This document shows, piece after piece, positions 5,236 to 40,263 of a DNA stretch of 64,000 bases; position 1 is the stretch's first letter, and each line of letters starts with the position of its first letter. This DNA comes from an uncultured Bacilli bacterium. Lineage in GTDB: Bacteria; Bacillota_I; Bacilli_A; RF39; UBA660. The notes below the pieces were generated by a model. It worked only from the letters and a program-made list of their open reading frames with translations. It did no database searches and was not told the origin of the DNA. A program made the translations under genes and the position numbers. The stretch is from contig CALVIX010000001.1 in the NCBI GenBank assembly GCA_944331895.1, positions 1-64,000 of the forward strand, in the 5' to 3' direction.

Positions 5236-5886
5236 TCACAACTCTTTTTCTTTGATTTTCTTTATTTTAATTTCTCTTGCTTCTTCATATCCATTTGTAA
5301 ATAAAATTTTGATATTCTTTTTTTGATATGGATATAGCACTTTCTTCAAATCTCTCGATAATTGATTTCCTCTCACCACGATCTTTGTAATACCATTTTG
5401 TAAAAAATAATCTGGTGAAGGAATATCTTGTGGATAAATATCCCAGCTATTATCAAAGATAGATGGATCTATTTTATATCGATTCAAACGATTTCGATCT
5501 AAAAGAAATACAGGTGGTGCATCTTCTTCTAATACTATCTTTTCTAACTCTAAAGCTCCCCATACTAATAATGGCTCTATCATAGCATTATTCGTAGTAG
5601 AAGAAACACCTATAGATGGATTAGTCCCATTAAATATCGGAATTGGACGGTATCCAAGATGAGCAAGTGCGATTCCTTCTTTGATGCTATCTACTCCTTC
5701 GATATCTATGATAATTGCAGTATCTTTGCTTAAATTATTTACATAAAATATCTTTGGAATACTATCATCGATAAATTCGTGAACTTGATACGGGCTATCG
5801 ATTCCAATAAATGGAACAGGTCTCACCCAATCTACCCATCTCTTTCCAGTAGGTGTCCACTTTTTATAGACTTCTTTTCCTGTCAT
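5236..5886 (-). CDS. unknown protein coupled to the ATP-grasp ligase
   Basis: 216 residues from the ATG at 5886; a longer TTG start at 5904 is possible, but AAAGGAA sits at the right distance only for the ATG. Its start overlaps the end of the ligase gene by 23 bases and its end is 16 bases before hss, so translation is probably coupled. The protein is soluble with an alternating strand/helix pattern: FIGIDSPYQVHEF, KDTAIIIDIEGVDSI, GYRPIPIFNGTNP, PPVFLLDRNRL, ITKIVVRGNQLS. The repeated hydrophobic strands ending in D or N suggest an alpha/beta fold. I do not recognise a family. Context suggests a partner or second enzyme for polyamine conjugation. Confidence 0.75.
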   Translation of the reverse strand: MTGKEVYKKWTPTGKRWVDWVRPVPFIGIDSPYQVHEFIDDSIPKIFYVNNLSKDTAIIIDIEGVDSIKEGIALAHLGYRPIPIFNGTNPSIGVSSTTNNAMIEPLLVWGALELEKIVLEEDAPPVFLLDRNRLNRYKIDPSIFDNSWDIYPQDIPSPDYFLQNGITKIVVRGNQLSRDLKKVLYPYQKKNIKILFTNGYEEAREIKIKKIKEKEL

Positions 5887-7099
5887 CTTTTTTATTCCTT
5901 TCAATCAAAACTGGTATATCGGCAGCATCGGAATCAATTCTATTTTTCTCACTGATTCTAGCGTAAAATCCCGCATGGTTTCCATCTACACTATATGAGC
6001 CTAAACAGACGTGAAAAAGTTTTCCGTCTGGACTCTTCAAAGGCTTACTTAGAAATTTTTTCTGTGCAAGATATCGTTTTGGGTGTCTACGAACATCTTT
6101 TAAAATTGTTTGATATTCGCCTTCACTACAAGCTTCTGGAATAGAAATTTTTTCTCCTACTCTACCCCAAGCAGGCTTATATATATATCCATCTTTTCCT
6201 TTAAGATTTTTCACTTCGATCGTATCTGGAAGTAATTTTCTCCATGTTTCTAATGAAATTCCGTGTTGTTCTAATAGATCCCATATAAGTGGAAATCGTT
6301 TTGTTTGAGCGAATATTGCAATTGGATGATTACAAGAAGGCGTAGTCGTATCAAAATAACCTGCCCATGTTTTTGGTTTGATTTCTTTCAACCACTCTAA
6401 AGGAGTAAAACGTACGATACAATCGATCTTACCTTGATTTCCATCTAAAATACTCATAGCTTCTCTATTTTCGAATCGCACGTGATCTGCTGCACCATAA
6501 AGCGAATGAAAGCCAAGTGATTCCATTTTATCTCCAATATACTGCATCACCTGACGATCATCACTATAAGATGTACAATGTACAAACATGATCGTGCCAT
6601 TACGTTTTATTTTTTTCGCAATCGTTTTTGCTAAAATGTCTCCAAAGTCGATACTATCATAACTTTTCCGAGATTTAGATAGATATCGAATTGCTAATTT
6701 AGGTAATAACGAAGCTTCTGCAAAGCCTCCTGGAACATCACTATTCACTTCGCTAATAACCCATTTTTCATCAACCGTAGGATGAAAATCATAACGCATT
6801 AATCGAATATGTCTCTTTGGATCGTACTCTTTCATTCGCTTCAATTCACACGAAATCTTCTTAGGAATTTCTAATCGTTTTGCAAGATCTAAATGTCGAT
6901 TTAAAAACTCCTCTGCACATCTCGTCTCCGAATCCAACATCTCAGTCAACTCTGCTAGTTCTTTAGATTCTTTCTCCGTTATGACAAGAGCATATTTTGC
7001 AAGTGTATTATGATCTAAAAATTGAGGATCCCATTTATAACAATCAAAAATCGCATCCACTCGATACTCTTCATAATTTGGTATAGATACTAATTTCAT
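5864..7099 (-). CDS. glutathionylspermidine synthase-like ATP-grasp ligase
   Basis: 411 residues matching the synthetase half of the GSP_synth family (as in Gsp, YgiC, YjfC). Diagnostic pieces in order: RLMRYDFHPT (about 100-109) followed by VISEVNSDVPGGFAEAS, the ATP/Mg-binding R-x-D and E-x-N-x-D-x-P motif; KPAWGRVGEKI (about 309), the nucleotide-binding loop that reads K-P-x-x-G-R-x-G; and LGSYSVDGNHAGFYARIS near the end. The N-terminal amidase domain of E. coli Gsp is absent. Family members form an amide between a carboxylate (glutathione in E. coli) and a polyamine amine using ATP. With homospermidine synthase two genes downstream, homospermidine is the obvious amine substrate; the acyl partner is unknown. 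Confidence 0.8.
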   Translation of the reverse strand: MKLVSIPNYEEYRVDAIFDCYKWDPQFLDHNTLAKYALVITEKESKELAELTEMLDSETRCAEEFLNRHLDLAKRLEIPKKISCELKRMKEYDPKRHIRLMRYDFHPTVDEKWVISEVNSDVPGGFAEASLLPKLAIRYLSKSRKSYDSIDFGDILAKTIAKKIKRNGTIMFVHCTSYSDDRQVMQYIGDKMESLGFHSLYGAADHVRFENREAMSILDGNQGKIDCIVRFTPLEWLKEIKPKTWAGYFDTTTPSCNHPIAIFAQTKRFPLIWDLLEQHGISLETWRKLLPDTIEVKNLKGKDGYIYKPAWGRVGEKISIPEACSEGEYQTILKDVRRHPKRYLAQKKFLSKPLKSPDGKLFHVCLGSYSVDGNHAGFYARISEKNRIDSDAADIPVLIERNKKDDRKRSL

Positions 7100-30356: not shown

Positions 30357-30383
30357 ATAAAAAAATGAGGTTGTTTCCTCATT
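30357..30383 (-). terminator. pilin operon terminator
   Basis: AATGAGG / CCTCATT stem, six-base loop, seven T on the minus strand; overlaps the stop of the second prepilin gene. Confidence 0.75.
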
Positions 30384-30783
30384 CAATTACTTGTTTACAT
30401 TCCGAAGGTTCATACAGTTTTAAATCGTATTTGATCATTTCAACTCCAGTACGATCCTCTACTGTATATTTTAGTACCTTGGACAAACTAATCTCTTGTC
30501 CACTATTCGCATCGATCAGTGGCGCTTCTAATTCTCCTGCGTCTGTCAGTTCTTTTAATGAAATACAAAAGGTATTCCCTGCATTTTGATGATAAGTCGA
30601 TTGATTCTTATCTAAATATATTTCTCCTGCATGATAGAAAACCTCTATCGTTGCTGATGAAATATTTCCTTTTGATTTATTCATTTGGTTGATAATTTGC
30701 GGGAGTGCAACGACGGATAATATTCCAATAATAATGATAACTCCCAACAATTCAATCAATGTAAAACCGTTCTTTAATTTCAT
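30379..30783 (-). CDS. type IV prepilin-like protein
   Basis: 134 residues. KNG-FTLIELLGVIIIIGILSVVALP is a class III signal: Gly before a cleaved Phe, Glu at +5, then a long hydrophobic helix. The C-terminal domain has two Cys (FCISLKEL and PSEC) that also occur in the neighbouring larger prepilin, suggesting a disulfide loop. A prepilin peptidase would cut after Gly5. It is eight bases behind that gene. No pilus ATPase, inner-membrane protein or peptidase gene lies in the window. Confidence 0.85.
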   Translation of the reverse strand: MKLKNGFTLIELLGVIIIIGILSVVALPQIINQMNKSKGNISSATIEVFYHAGEIYLDKNQSTYHQNAGNTFCISLKELTDAGELEAPLIDANSGQEISLSKVLKYTVEDRTGVEMIKYDLKLYEPSECKQVIE

Positions 30784-30791
30784 AAACTCAC

Positions 30792-32105
30792 CTATTTTTC
30801 TATGATAGTAATGCGCGCAAACCCATTTCCTTCATTACCAGTAATTTTGACTGTTCCACGAGGATTTGGCATGACTGCATTTCCACCAATCATCTCGATT
30901 TGTTTAAATACTTTTCCTGAATAGTGCGTATTCGATGTTCCGATGGCTCCACTTTCTAGTACCGCTCTACAACCGGTACATCCAGAGACGAAAGATGATC
31001 CTCCGCCACCACCCATATTGTGACAGTTTCCACCAGTTGAAGATCCTCCGAATCCACCGAAGTATCCTCCACCACCACCAGAGTGTCCACCACAAGCACC
31101 TGTCGTACCAGCATTAGCGCCATTTCCACCGACACCAAATGCACTACCTGAGGTCTGTGTACCTCCAGTTCCGCGTTTCGCTATATCGCTTGGATAATTA
31201 GCTAAAATTGCCGGAAGCGCTCCCTGTTCTCCATTGGTCGTTCCCGCATTTCCTTTTTGATTATCATAACCAGCATCTTTATAGACGTGTCCTCCACCGC
31301 CTCCAGCTACCATAATCCTACTCTTTAATCCTTCTGCATCGTTCCATGCTCCACCAACTAAACGTACATCGGTTGCTCCTCCTCCGGAGTTTCCTCCGGC
31401 ATAGTTAGAAAAGCCATATGTTTCGCTACCGCTAGCGTTTCCTCCAGCACCTCCACCATTAAAAGTTGCTACCGCACCAGATCCCATTGTACGCGTCTCT
31501 TCATTTCCACTAGAACCTTTCTTACCAGATTCTCCAACATAGACGTAAAGTCGATCCCCTCGTTGCAATGTGATAACTCCACTCGTATAAGCTCCTTTAC
31601 CACCTGCGTAATCATTCGTTCCTGCTCCCCATAATTCAATACGATAATCTCCATCTTTTGGAGCGGTAAATGTCTGTACGCCACCTGTATAATCAAAAAT
31701 AAATTCAGTCGACTCTAAAATTGCGCTACATTCAGACGGATCATATAAATTAAGATCATGAGTTAATTTCCGATTTGTCGTTACTTTAAACTTTAACGTT
31801 TTCGTAAGTGGTATATTCTTACCCGTCTGTGCATCCGTAACGGGAGTATTGATTTTCCCAGCATCGGCAAGTTGTTGTAACGAAACACAAAAAACATTAT
31901 CCTCTGTCAATTTATAATTGTTAATATTCTCTTTAATATAACTTTCTCCATTACTATAGAGTACTTTAGCAGTTGCCTCAGATATATTACTCTTCGCTTT
32001 ATTGATACTTCCCGTAATAATCGGAAATGCAATTAGAGCAATAAGTCCTAATACAGTAATAACTCCTAGTAATTCAACTAACGTAAACCCTTGTCTTTTC
32101 TTCAT
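30792..32105 (-). CDS. prepilin fused to an ALK-type glycine-rich domain
   Basis: 437 residues. Residues 1-130 form a prepilin module like that of the next gene: RQG-FTLVELLGVITVLGLIAL, then FCVSLQQLADAG and DPSEC. From about 133 on comes a second domain: FDYTGGVQTFTAP, YRIELWGAGTN, GGKGAYTSGVITL, LYVYVGESG, GGGATDVRLV, RIMVAGGGGG, then many glycines and NPRGTVKITGNEGNGFARI. This matches the glycine-rich domain of anaplastic lymphoma kinase (Gly_rich, PF12810) found on some bacterial surface proteins. It would display the domain at the tip or side of a pilus. AGGTCGAT precedes the ATG. Confidence 0.85.
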   Translation of the reverse strand: MKKRQGFTLVELLGVITVLGLIALIAFPIITGSINKAKSNISEATAKVLYSNGESYIKENINNYKLTEDNVFCVSLQQLADAGKINTPVTDAQTGKNIPLTKTLKFKVTTNRKLTHDLNLYDPSECSAILESTEFIFDYTGGVQTFTAPKDGDYRIELWGAGTNDYAGGKGAYTSGVITLQRGDRLYVYVGESGKKGSSGNEETRTMGSGAVATFNGGGAGGNASGSETYGFSNYAGGNSGGGATDVRLVGGAWNDAEGLKSRIMVAGGGGGHVYKDAGYDNQKGNAGTTNGEQGALPAILANYPSDIAKRGTGGTQTSGSAFGVGGNGANAGTTGACGGHSGGGGGYFGGFGGSSTGGNCHNMGGGGGSSFVSGCTGCRAVLESGAIGTSNTHYSGKVFKQIEMIGGNAVMPNPRGTVKITGNEGNGFARITIIEK

Positions 32106-32187
32106 ACTATCGACCTATCCTATGCTTTTATTATAACCTTTTTTTCTTCATTTGTACATAGATAACAAAAAAGAACCGTAAAGTAAC

Positions 32188-33429
32188 CTAAGGCACGTAA
32201 GTGATCACTTCATGCGCTATATCGAGTCTTAATTGTTCTTTTTGGTTTTTGGGAATCACTACTTGTTTTACATGACCATCAGAAATATACTTGGTCTGCT
32301 CCAATTCTTGCATTATCTGCTCCAAACTTTCCGTTGTTGTATCCCCAGGTGATGCTTGTATCCGTTTGATAAAATCTGTAGAAAACGAAAGATCAAAGCA
32401 AGACACATTTGCTCCAAATCCTGGTTGTAGTGTCGCATAAGTCTGATAGTGATATTGATCGTAAGTGCCATCTAGAATCACATCGTAATTCTTATGATTT
32501 ACTTGATACGGTGACCCATTTGGAAGTGCGACAATGGAAACATAATCTTCTCCAATGACATCTTCCAACAAATGGTATATACCACCAATTTCCTTTTCCG
32601 TTGCCGTATCATCCAATGTTGTAATATCGGCTTCTGTCATCGTACCATTTCCTACATCATATCCATTTTCTACAAGCCATTCCAGTATTTTTTTATTATA
32701 TTTTTTATCGCCAAACAAATGCTCGTTCACAAAAAAAGTAGCAGTTACTTGAAAATCAGGATATTTCTTTTTAAATGATTCTAAAATTCCAAGCGTACAA
32801 TCTGGATCTATTTTTAATTTCCCATTTTTTGTTTCTCCTATCACTTTGACAGTATTTTCATATCCACCATCGAACGTTAACACAATCGGGCTTTTCCCCA
32901 TCTCTACATCGATATCTCCCTTTATCATATCTTGCAGTGCTATCATACGGTACTGATGTTCATAATAATATTGTAAATCATTCTTAAATGCTTCTACTGT
33001 TCGAACGAAACCATTTTTATCTGTCGTTCCATCTTCTTCTTTTGTCACATCGTCTACCTTTTCGATCTCATGATAAACAATAATTGGTATCATACCAAGT
33101 TCATTGACTTTATATTTCTTATAAAGCTCTCTCTCGTCTTTTCCTAACGATACTATAACACTTAATGTTTCCTTATCGCGTAATTGTTTTCCCACGACAA
33201 TACTCTGTTTCATGACAATATCTTTTCTTACATCATCACTGTATACTTCTTTTATTTTTAAGTTAAGATTATTATCTTGCGCAAATTGGCGAGCAACACT
33301 AACGTTAAGTCCTACAACATCGATCATTTTCTCTTTTCCCTTCGGCATAAAAATTAACAATAAATAAAAGAAAGTAAAAAGACATAAACAAAATAACAAA
33401 ATATTGATTCGACGCTTTTTTATTTCCAT
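32188..33429 (-). CDS. PASTA plus degenerate polysaccharide deacetylase domain, membrane-anchored
   Basis: 413 residues from the ATG at 33429 (GGTGAT five bases upstream). A signal anchor (about 8-26), one PASTA domain (about 35-95, with KIKEVYSDDVRKDIV and SVIVSLGKD), then a NodB-fold: PIIVYHEIEKV, SPIVLTFDGGYENT, ATFFVNEHLFG, GYDVGNGTMTEADI, VSIVALPNGSPYQV. Active enzymes have T-F-D-D-G and H-S/T-x-x-H; here the second Asp is Gly and both His are Gly and Glu. All three metal ligands are gone, so it is predicted not to deacetylate. PASTA suggests peptidoglycan binding. Confidence 0.85.
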   Translation of the reverse strand: MEIKKRRINILLFCLCLFTFFYLLLIFMPKGKEKMIDVVGLNVSVARQFAQDNNLNLKIKEVYSDDVRKDIVMKQSIVVGKQLRDKETLSVIVSLGKDERELYKKYKVNELGMIPIIVYHEIEKVDDVTKEEDGTTDKNGFVRTVEAFKNDLQYYYEHQYRMIALQDMIKGDIDVEMGKSPIVLTFDGGYENTVKVIGETKNGKLKIDPDCTLGILESFKKKYPDFQVTATFFVNEHLFGDKKYNKKILEWLVENGYDVGNGTMTEADITTLDDTATEKEIGGIYHLLEDVIGEDYVSIVALPNGSPYQVNHKNYDVILDGTYDQYHYQTYATLQPGFGANVSCFDLSFSTDFIKRIQASPGDTTTESLEQIMQELEQTKYISDGHVKQVVIPKNQKEQLRLDIAHEVITYVP

Positions 33430-33482
33430 ACAATCACCAATATTAGTATGAATCATTTTTTAAATTTCATAACTTTTAAACA

Positions 33483-36902: not shown

Positions 36903-37415
36903 TCAACCGACTTTTTCACAAAATATAATCAATCTTTCGGAATCATCTTCCATGCACGTAATTAAGACTAAATTCCCGGTAGATGGAAATGAAGGAAATT
37001 CTGTTTCACTTACGACATGAAAACTACTCACTCGATATTTTCTATAAACCCCACTCCAATAAAGTTCTACAATATCTCCTTTTTTCAGTTTTTCTAAAGG
37101 AGCGAAAACAGTTGGAATACGATGGCCCACTAAATGAATATTTTGACTATCAGGAACACTCCAATAAGCTACTTTAGATTCTGACAATAACCGACTCGTC
37201 GATCCTCGTTCCAATACTTGATATAATGCGATGGAAGAAATTTTTAAATACCCTTCATCTTCTACAGTAGGAGAATTTTCTATTTGAGTGATTTTTTCTT
37301 TTGCTCTTTCTTTTTGAATAAAATTATCTTTGCAACAAGTCCAAAATATATAGATAGATCCTAACATGCATACACATCCTAAAACTAATACAAACCGTGC
37401 CTTCGTGCTATCCAT
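36903..37415 (-). CDS. sortase
   Basis: 170 residues with an N-terminal membrane helix (about 8-26). The catalytic His is in HLVGHRIPTVFAPLEKLKKGD, the Cys in LVLITCME and the Arg in SERLIIF. Sortases cut a sorting motif and join the protein to the cell wall or to a pilin Lys. Its start overlaps the end of the surface-protein gene by 31 bases, a sign that this is its dedicated substrate. Small size and sequence do not allow a safe class call. Confidence 0.88.
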   Translation of the reverse strand: MDSTKARFVLVLGCVCMLGSIYIFWTCCKDNFIQKERAKEKITQIENSPTVEDEGYLKISSIALYQVLERGSTSRLLSESKVAYWSVPDSQNIHLVGHRIPTVFAPLEKLKKGDIVELYWSGVYRKYRVSSFHVVSETEFPSFPSTGNLVLITCMEDDSERLIIFCEKVG

Positions 37416-40177
37416 CTCGATCCTATCACTAGTAAAATACCAAAAGTAAACAAAGAAAGAATCGTCACTTTCATATATTTCATCGTATTACTCGCCTTTG
37501 GTATTACGATTCTTTTATTATAAATCGTTACATTTCCAACTTCAGATTGTAATTCGTATGATATAGAGTCTTCTTTCTTCTGATAATATTGTGGAGCTTT
37601 GGTCTCTCTTATTTGATAAGTTCCATATGGCATCTGATGTAAAGATATCTCCCCCATGGACAAGTCTACAGCAATTTCTGTGCCTCCTTCATATGCCAAA
37701 GTAATTTCAGCCCCTCTTAATATTTGTAAGGTCTCATTATCTTTTTTTTCTAACTCGAAATCTCCTTTCTTGATGCGATTTACAATTGGTTTTTCCAAGA
37801 CATCTTCTTGATGAACCGTATGATCTATTGTAAATTCATACTCTCGATCATCTTTGATATAAGGTTCTATATCTGAAAGTTCCTTTATATAATATGTCCC
37901 ATTTGGAAGTGGTAATTCAATCATTCCAATACCTTTTTCATCGGTCACGATCGTCTCTAATTTCGTATCGGGTGCGATCGATAAATCGCCTAGTATTAGA
38001 ACATCTCTGTTATACAAACCAAATTCGACCCCTTCCATACTGATATTTTGATAGACTGCTTCCCGATCGATAATTCCGACAAATTGTTCTTTTAACTTTT
38101 GAAAGTATCGTTTTTTCTTCACTCTTTCGTTATGAAATGAAAATTTGAAAATCACCTCGGAAGTTTTATCATCTTGAAATTTTAAAGTACCACAATACTC
38201 TTTCGAATCTATTTGATATCCATCAGGTACGCTCTTTTCTTTCACACAATAAGTTCCAAGCGGTAATAATTCACTGAGTGCTATTCCATTCTCGTCGGTA
38301 ACTAGTTCTGAAAAGACTTGTCCGCTTTGGAATTTTTGATTTTGATACGTAATTTCTTGCCTCGTCGTAACTTCATAGGTAACTTGGGATAGAGGTATTT
38401 TCTCAGAGACCATTTTAATGCCTCCTAACGTTTTTTCGTATGAATTTTTTTCACCTGTTTTTTCTATTTGTAATCTTCCCTGCGGCTTTCTATTTTCGAC
38501 AATCAGTTCTATTACTTCACCGTCTATAAGATATTCTTGATCGATCGTAAACGAAATTGGATTCCCGAGCAAATATCCATCTGGTGCATGAATTTCCTCT
38601 AGAAGATAATTTCCACCTTCTAAAGGTTCTGGTGTAGTAAATTCGCCATTTTCATTCGTTTCAAACACATCTATTTCCTCTCCATTTGGATACGTTACTT
38701 GTTGTTTCACATACTCTCCTGATTCAAGATTTTTAATCTTAAACGAAATCCCTGCCATTTTAATTTTTTCTTTTGTTTCTGCATCAACTTTTATTACCCT
38801 CAGTTTTGCTTTTACACGAGCATCAGATAAAACATAGCGAACAGGCTCTGGCTTCTCCTCATATACATGTATTTCAAAATCATCTATTTTTTCATAATAA
38901 GGGCTTGTATTTTTCTGTGTGACTCTATAACTTCCATACGGTAATCGAAAGGATGCATAGCCACTTTGATCCGTTACCACGGTTTTCACTAACTCATCCT
39001 GTTCATTATAAATTTCAAAGGTAATCCCTCCCTCAGGTAGAAGAGTTCCACTTTCTCCTTCGTTATATACTTTCATCAATTCAATTTGATTTGTAATCAC
39101 TTGTTCCTGTGATTTTACTACTACGATATTTTCCTTATTCTGTTTTGATACTAAGACTGTATAAACTTGTGGATCTATCAAATACCCTGTACTAGCAGTT
39201 TTCTCCTGTACTGTATACTCACCTAACGCAAGCATTTTTGATTCACCAATTCCATTTTCATCTGTCTTTATTTGATCCACAATATTTCCATCTTTATCTT
39301 TTACTTCGTATACTGCACCTTTTAAACTAGCTGCCCCAGATGGAACGTTTTCGTTCGTATCGCGATCGACCTTTTGTACTCTAATTCTTCCTCCCTTTAT
39401 TTCAAAATATACTTTACTTTGTAGCATAGAACTTAAAGATAAGGAAGCGAGCGTTTGAGAGCCTACTTTTCTATAGACAAAACTATGTTGTCCTGTTCCT
39501 CCTCTTTTCTTCATCACTATCTCGCCATTTCCCACCTCTAATCCTTTTACTTTTAAATTGTTTCCCTCGATCGATGCGCTTACTCCTGTTTGTTTTTCTA
39601 TTGTGTAACTAGATAGTACCGCATTCTGATCAGTAAGTGATATCTCACTTTCCATGGAGACAATCACTGTCGATTCATCAAACGAAGGCTTTTTCCAATC
39701 CATTTGAATCAATCTCATAATCTCGTTTTTTTCCGCATTCACATCAATTCTTAAACCTTGCATCGCGGCTCCAGTAGTAAAGTATACTTCTTGATATCCT
39801 ATCGTTTCCCATAGCATTTCTTGCGTTGCCATATAATATCGATCTGTCTGGTGCCCAGGATATTGATAACCATAGGTTGCAATCAATTCCATTTGTTCTT
39901 TTTGCTCTAACGTTAATCCCTCTATACCAAAATCTAAATAAGAATCGTATATAAAATCACTTAGTCCCACTTCTGGTTCGATACAATACGCTAAAATCCC
40001 ATTCGCATACAGATATCCCATTTGACTCCAATAAGTTCTTCCCTGTATGACGACATTAGAAAATACTTTTGGTATCATCCTTCTCGTAATTTGAGTATCT
40101 TGGGTTCCTGCTTGTACCATTGGAAGGAAAGCAAAGAAAAACAAAAGTACCAAACAATATTTGCACCACTTTTTCAT
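37385..40177 (-). CDS. thioester-domain and Cna_B-repeat surface adhesin with variant sorting signal
   Basis: 930 residues from the ATG at 40177 (AGGTGATCAG upstream). Signal peptide (1-23, ending MVQAG). A thioester domain follows, with Cys65 (AYCIEPE) and Gln119 (YMATQEMLWE) placed to form the internal Cys-Gln thioester that lets such adhesins bond covalently to host amines. Then about six Cna_B/SpaA-like modules, each with a closing strand such as LGEYTVQEKTA, YGSYRVTQKN, GGNYLLEEIHAP, LGTYCVKEKSVP, NGTYYIKEL, YGTYQIRETKAP. The C-terminus has IPKASNT, a hydrophobic helix and RRHGLY: a sorting signal without the canonical L-P-x-T-G. Confidence 0.88.
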   Translation of the reverse strand: MKKWCKYCLVLLFFFAFLPMVQAGTQDTQITRRMIPKVFSNVVIQGRTYWSQMGYLYANGILAYCIEPEVGLSDFIYDSYLDFGIEGLTLEQKEQMELIATYGYQYPGHQTDRYYMATQEMLWETIGYQEVYFTTGAAMQGLRIDVNAEKNEIMRLIQMDWKKPSFDESTVIVSMESEISLTDQNAVLSSYTIEKQTGVSASIEGNNLKVKGLEVGNGEIVMKKRGGTGQHSFVYRKVGSQTLASLSLSSMLQSKVYFEIKGGRIRVQKVDRDTNENVPSGAASLKGAVYEVKDKDGNIVDQIKTDENGIGESKMLALGEYTVQEKTASTGYLIDPQVYTVLVSKQNKENIVVVKSQEQVITNQIELMKVYNEGESGTLLPEGGITFEIYNEQDELVKTVVTDQSGYASFRLPYGSYRVTQKNTSPYYEKIDDFEIHVYEEKPEPVRYVLSDARVKAKLRVIKVDAETKEKIKMAGISFKIKNLESGEYVKQQVTYPNGEEIDVFETNENGEFTTPEPLEGGNYLLEEIHAPDGYLLGNPISFTIDQEYLIDGEVIELIVENRKPQGRLQIEKTGEKNSYEKTLGGIKMVSEKIPLSQVTYEVTTRQEITYQNQKFQSGQVFSELVTDENGIALSELLPLGTYCVKEKSVPDGYQIDSKEYCGTLKFQDDKTSEVIFKFSFHNERVKKKRYFQKLKEQFVGIIDREAVYQNISMEGVEFGLYNRDVLILGDLSIAPDTKLETIVTDEKGIGMIELPLPNGTYYIKELSDIEPYIKDDREYEFTIDHTVHQEDVLEKPIVNRIKKGDFELEKKDNETLQILRGAEITLAYEGGTEIAVDLSMGEISLHQMPYGTYQIRETKAPQYYQKKEDSISYELQSEVGNVTIYNKRIVIPKASNTMKYMKVTILSLFTFGILLVIGSRWIARRHGLY

Positions 40178-40228
40178 CTGATCACCTCTAATGATATCAT
40201 ACGAAGCAAAGTGGTAATCTCCTTCTTG

Positions 40229-40263
40229 AAAAGAAAAAAAGAAGCAACTTATCATCGCTTACT
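40229..40263 (-). terminator. terminator of the DD-carboxypeptidase gene
   Basis: AAGCGA / TTGCTT stem around a seven-base loop, then C and seven T on the minus strand; overlaps the stop. Confidence 0.55.

Follow-up and report, generated by a model that had tools for sequence, protein, structure and literature searches.

A modular type IV prepilin with an ALK/LTK-type glycine-rich domain, a probable exchangeable adhesive head in a family of gut Bacilli

Introduction

What does a glycine-rich domain (GRD) of the kind known from the animal receptor kinases ALK and LTK do on a bacterial prepilin? The question is raised by one gene in a window of 64,000 nucleotides (the whole stretch of DNA analyzed here) from an uncultured, genome-reduced gut bacterium of the Bacilli. 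A first-pass annotation, made from the sequence alone, had described a prepilin module fused to an ALK-type domain and placed it on a retractable or short surface fiber. It also held an adhesive or receptor-mimicking function to be conceivable. We propose that the gene probably encodes a modular minor type IV pilin whose head is an exchangeable adhesive module, displayed at the pilus tip or close to it.

Results

The gene combines a pilin module with a second domain

The open reading frame at 30792-32105 (reverse strand) encodes a modular prepilin of 437 amino acids. Pfam matches only N_methyl (PF07963) and PF12810 in this product, and finds no EGF-like or kinase domain. An AlphaFold2 model (a monomer prediction built with 70 aligned relatives; pLDDT 87.6, pTM 0.76) shows the same two parts.

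The pilin module comprises residues 1-135 (31701-32105, reverse strand), as delimited by the N_methyl match, by similarity to the next gene and by the secondary structure of the model. N_methyl covers residues 1-27 (29.9 bits, cut-off 21.2), and TIGR02532 matches as well (21.8 bits, cut-off 16.3). The class III leader consists of MKKRQG followed by FTLVE, with the cut before F (+1) and a Glu at +5. In the model the module forms a long helix (residues 9-61) and a small beta sheet. Cleavage site, Glu+5 and hydrophobic helix, the marks of a class III signal peptide, are all present. The glycine-rich head, residues 136-437 and the stop codon (30792-31700, reverse strand), is modelled as a TNF-like beta-sandwich with glycine-rich loops.

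The next gene (30379-30783, reverse strand) encodes a bare prepilin of 134 amino acids (PF07963, 27.8 bits). Its product is 45% identical to the first ~131 residues of the modular prepilin (BLASTP, 2e-35), and the shared prepilin module of the first-pass annotation is thus real. Eight bases separate the stop codon of the modular prepilin from the bare prepilin gene, which has AGGTGAG ahead of it and is a probable operon partner. Two consensus matches fit a two-gene operon: a promoter-like site upstream of the modular prepilin (TGTACA-17-TATAAT, 10/12; 32130-32158, reverse strand) and a terminator-like hairpin, followed by a T tail, where the bare prepilin gene ends (30363-30384, reverse strand). 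Such sites occur in the region at close to chance frequency, and hence it is its position that supports the promoter-like site. Further upstream lies a gene for a protein with PASTA and polysaccharide-deacetylase domains (32188-33456, reverse strand; PF03793, PF01522). Its 41%-identical homologue at another locus, L100, is equally placed ahead of a related head.

Elsewhere in the window (36903-40255, reverse strand) a sortase gene (PF04203) adjoins a gene whose 956-aa product combines a thioester domain (TED) with six domains of the SpaA type. Judged by these domains, the pair is likely a sortase-anchored covalent adhesin and a second surface-attachment system in the window.

The head belongs to the ALK/LTK fold class

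PF12810 matches residues 150-435 with 140.2 bits (cut-off 24.5; 1.5e-40) and covers positions 6-243 of the 243 in the profile. The first-pass annotation had itself named mere low-complexity glycine as the outcome that would speak against its domain. Such an artefact is ruled out, because two residue shuffles, two shuffles that keep the glycine runs and the reversed domain all lack a PF12810 match at E<=10.

The predicted structure agrees with the profile match. Modelled alone, the head reaches a pTM of 0.91 and is a beta-sandwich with glycine loops. Foldseek searches of the PDB with the whole protein or the head yield 21 matches below 1e-3, all of them chains of ALK, LTK or C. elegans SCD-2; no chain from outside the ALK family falls below this threshold. 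For the head model these 21 chains have E-values from 2.4e-8 to 2.2e-6 and a probability of 1.00. TM-scores to ALK are 0.38-0.44, with ~18% identity in the fold alignments, which for a predicted structure indicates that the ALK-type fold class is secure and that the loop lattice probably differs in detail.

A single-sequence search of the PDB matched pilins and missed ALK, which was matched by an alignment profile. A profile of twelve bacterial GRD proteins retrieves human ALK (8.1e-9), LTK (2.2e-6) and C. elegans SCD-2 (3.9e-6). The fusion of an ALK/LTK-type domain to a prepilin is therefore confirmed by both profile and fold.

Across the 70 relatives, mean entropy is 1.37 bits for strands and 1.34 bits for glycines, and 2.39 bits for the other loop residues. 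Strands and glycines are conserved and the remaining loop residues are variable, as unconstrained loops would be too.

The head is an optional part of the pilins beside pilB

The source genome (1.12 Mb in 13 contigs, 83% complete) contains four PF12810 domains, three of them on prepilins. Two GRD prepilins lie side by side at C2:56724-58154 and C2:58170-59840 and adjoin the genes for PilC, the prepilin peptidase PilD and PilB. The fourth domain belongs to a protein with an ordinary, non-pilin transmembrane anchor (C2:105303-106643, reverse strand). Its gene lies between a lipoprotein-like gene and one for a 387-aa membrane-anchored protein, and it has close relatives in L112 and L135.

We sampled 98 genomes of the same family. 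A PilB-type T2SSE ATPase is present in 94 of them, a few of which rest on the Tad-type ATPase alone, and PF12810 is present in 43, with up to ~20 copies per genome. Most genomes examined have kept two minor prepilins, A and B, divergent from pilB. The pilin modules of both slots have homologues at 37 loci each across the family. The head is found on 6 of the 37 slot-A matches and on 14 of the 37 slot-B matches. Slot pilins without it are either bare (155-206 aa) or carry other modules: LamG (PF13385), LRR_5 of the BspA type (PF13306), Fib_succ_major (PF09603), DUF7507/CBM49 or DUF6273. At L312, for example, the slot-A minor pilin (5720-6886, reverse strand) has a LamG lectin module where other relatives have the GRD.

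One or both slots carry the head in 20 genomes or records, some of them closely related (the source genome, G002, G005, G028, G059, G062, G064, G090 and twelve further records). Eight of the 43 domain-bearing genomes have a head in the pilB-linked slots, compared to ~0.9 expected if heads were placed at random (within 4 kb; shared ancestry ignored). As in other modular pilins (Raynaud 2021), the C-terminal domain is not pilus-specific, and orthologous slot pilins exist without PF12810. Of all the evidence, this slot pattern argues most strongly that the minor pilins of a functioning pilus system take the head as an optional and exchangeable extra.

Heads have switched carriers

The window's head was placed on a tree of 93 heads, which came from a fast search and carries no bootstrap values. 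It belongs there to a trio (SH-aLRT 98) whose other members are the head of the core slot-A pilin of G005 and the head of L100, which sits on a different N-terminal anchor. In L100 the head is followed by a LamG domain, and PF12810 is combined there with LamG and Ig-like domains. The neighbors of the window's domain on this tree thus belong to two different carriers, and so the head passes from one carrier to another. Over the whole tree, the carrier must have switched between pilin and non-pilin at least 20 times.

A tandem array in G094 (L080, G094:C3:964000-983000) encodes nine GRD prepilins on one strand, two of them with double heads. We considered whether this array consists of antigenic-variation cassettes and rejected the idea: mean identity among the pilin modules (0.38) does not exceed that among the heads (0.43), so that nothing points to a recent switch of heads alone in this array.

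Other carriers differ from the window's gene in several ways. GRD proteins in L061, L068, L072, L125, L173 and L100 (5232-7451) have prepilin-leader-like N-termini (NKGF[AIL]xSxLY...) that lack Glu+5. Going by these N-termini, they may form a class of pilins at the extreme tip, comparable to GspK or S. sanguinis PilA. In Segatella albensis DSM 11370 (L121, L124, L172) many stand-alone GRD open reading frames of 242-297 aa start with MQxFxAP and alternate in orientation, so that they look like silent or invertible cassettes. Giant proteins of ~3,000-5,700 aa in L141, L109, L122, L132 and L143 carry multiple GRDs, as many as eight in the case of L141, and several of these proteins are cut by the end of the locus.

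Such giant proteins, some of which may be fibers or spacers, bear on another reading of the head. It might have a structural or protective task and bind no ligand itself, as a spacer, a cap or stabilizer of the tip complex, or a stiff surface fiber. We regard this as unlikely. The same pilins lack the head in most relatives, which means that the head is not needed for capping the filament. The slot is also used by known binding modules such as LamG, and L100 joins the head to LamG and Ig-like domains.

The genome encodes a type IV assembly machine

The first-pass annotation had suggested a search of the genome for a prepilin peptidase and a pilus ATPase. Both exist, together with PilC: the peptidase matches PF06750 (104 bits) and PF01478 (53 bits), PilC matches T2SSF (168 bits) and PilB reaches 410 bits. 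The source genome thus has the machinery that a type IV prepilin requires for assembly.

The term retractable fares less well. Full-strength T2SSE matches are limited to PilB and a Tad/CpaF-like ATPase, with one further stretch below the cut-off in a helicase-like open reading frame. As this search of the 83%-complete genome detected no PilT-type ATPase, the genome does not support the term. Pilus retraction without PilT is possible.

The lack of a PilT-type match would also suit a different filament. The prepilin pair of the window could serve a short pseudopilus or a competence-like filament for DNA uptake instead of an adhesive pilus, with a head that binds DNA or extracellular polymer. The best partial matches of the pilin module are the GspG and ComGC models, and PilB also matches ComGA and GspE. 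However, PilB, PilC and the pilins all remain below the equivalog cut-offs of the Com and T2SS models, and we consider this reading quite improbable.

The genome holds 16-17 prepilins and also a Tad-type locus, and this abundance counts against our preferred explanation of a modular minor pilin. Several prepilins are very large (698, 816 and 1880 aa) with Ig-like or Listeria-Bacteroides repeats. The longest (C3:119807-125449; L037:2-5449, reverse strand) has repeated Ig/fn3-like and Listeria-Bacteroides domains.

The closest relatives are bacterial, and phages carry a branch of the family

A single-sequence scan of the contig database returned 0 relatives, an alignment query 351. PF12810 occurs in 15 of 296 genomes sampled from the class and in 6 of 295 sampled from the phylum. 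All but one in each sample (14 of 15 and 5 of 6) come from the family of the source genome. Outside this family PF12810 is rare.

Phages carry the domain too (PHROG families 1589, 5811 and 7388). On viral contigs it forms the N-terminus of proteins of 515-577 aa, encoded before holin/endolysin-like genes. In clostridial prophages the gene directly follows a PF12571 tail-fiber gene, as shown for L186. The five phage domains that were sampled form one clade in the tree of 93 heads (SH-aLRT 99). A tblastn search of annotated phages gave no match despite these PHROG families and viral contigs, and the low-complexity filter of BLAST is the probable cause. The position of the phage copies points to a display role there as well, so that the fold appears to sit outermost on two unrelated machines.

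Receptor mimicry, by which the domain would imitate ALK/LTK and capture ALKAL cytokines or disturb host signaling, is highly implausible: the fold family is the same, profile E-values to ALK are about 1e-8 and many relatives come from animal guts, but the nearest relatives of the head are bacterial (54-56% identity, compared to ~18% for ALK), the domain has expanded in a bacterial lineage, the phage branch and many non-pilin bacterial carriers hold far closer sequences, and there is no sign of a recent transfer from animals.

Discussion

The head occurs repeatedly on and off subunits beside the pilus motor gene. Hence, it is most likely an exchangeable sticky tip and not a copy of an animal receptor. 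We picture secretion, tip position, binding and the type of ligand as follows. The class III leader would be cut by the prepilin peptidase of the genome, and the PilB/PilC machine would then incorporate the N-terminal helix into a type IV filament. A head of 300 residues would be too bulky for the interior of the filament and would be displayed at or near the tip. There, the variable loops of the beta-sandwich may bind a glycan or protein on the gut surface, on a food particle or on a neighboring cell. The head would act as an exchangeable cassette, with the same minor pilins being bare, headed or equipped with lectin-like, LRR or other modules. Because the window copy lies outside the pilB locus, we infer rather than observe that this satellite copy and the core copies share one filament. 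An adhesive role, which the first-pass annotation had already thought conceivable, is our inference from the genes, and comparative anatomy strengthens it.

Modular pilins are already known; the slot-exchange pattern and the satellite expansion distinguish this one. The combination of PF12810 with a pilin was not found in the literature searched, outside of which a protein of this build may be listed in supplementary dataset S1 of PMC8179133. No settled role for bacterial PF12810 domains was found. They are found here at a constant position of a pilus locus, where the slots otherwise hold lectin-like or bare minor pilins, and this gives them a concrete and testable role, that of an adhesive head on display. 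The modular-pilin concept gains a further module, and modules are seen to be exchanged at orthologous slots. For the cytokine-receiving fold of ALK and LTK, the results provide a prokaryotic and a phage setting. They also hint at a way in which uncultured gut bacteria with reduced genomes may attach to surfaces or partners.

A wider picture is possible but doubtful. In this family of gut Bacilli with reduced genomes, pilus tips might serve as a plug-in platform, on which the pilB-side minor pilins swap recognition heads and satellite and tandem arrays of GRD prepilins supply the repertoire of heads. The head would also be common to phage tail fibers, and two unrelated machines might then share one exchangeable, loop-diversified recognition fold, of which an animal branch would have become the ALK cytokine receptor.

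Comparison with known systems

The head resembles the glycine-rich (TG) domain of ALK, LTK and SCD-2 in its full-length PF12810 match, and these are its sole significant fold neighbors in the PDB. Unlike the receptors, the protein has a pilin anchor instead of a receptor transmembrane segment and carries the domain at its C-terminus. The low TM-scores to ALK suggest that the loop lattice of the model has diverged.

Glycine-rich tips are also known from phage tail fibers, namely gp24 of Pam3 and gp38 of S16 (PMC9608196). Pam3 gp24 contains a TNF-like sandwich, forms an intertwined trimer and has a chaperone, and its variable distal loop tips have been proposed to recognize the host receptor (PMC9608196). 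In its model, the pilin head likewise extends a TNF-like sandwich into glycine-rich loops. Its match to the Pam3 fiber structure is weak (Foldseek, E 0.39); a closer PF12810 relative lies in the clostridial phage tail-fiber region. Unlike gp24, the pilin head has no recognized chaperone gene beside it and is known from a monomer model.

A close parallel is offered by S. sanguinis. PilB (vWA) and PilC (LamG lectin) of this species are modular minor pilins that have been shown to bind host proteins and glycans and are modelled at the pilus tip (PMC8179133, PMC9934059). The ALK/LTK-type domain sets our protein apart from these modules, and the 2021 survey text does not name it as one of the frequent ones. 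The many satellite copies and tandem arrays, with nine GRD prepilins in G094, are a further difference. In both systems, however, a class III leader and a small pilin module are followed by a separate C-terminal functional domain. Both also have two modular minor pilins in the pilus locus, and in the relative L312 slot A even carries a LamG module.
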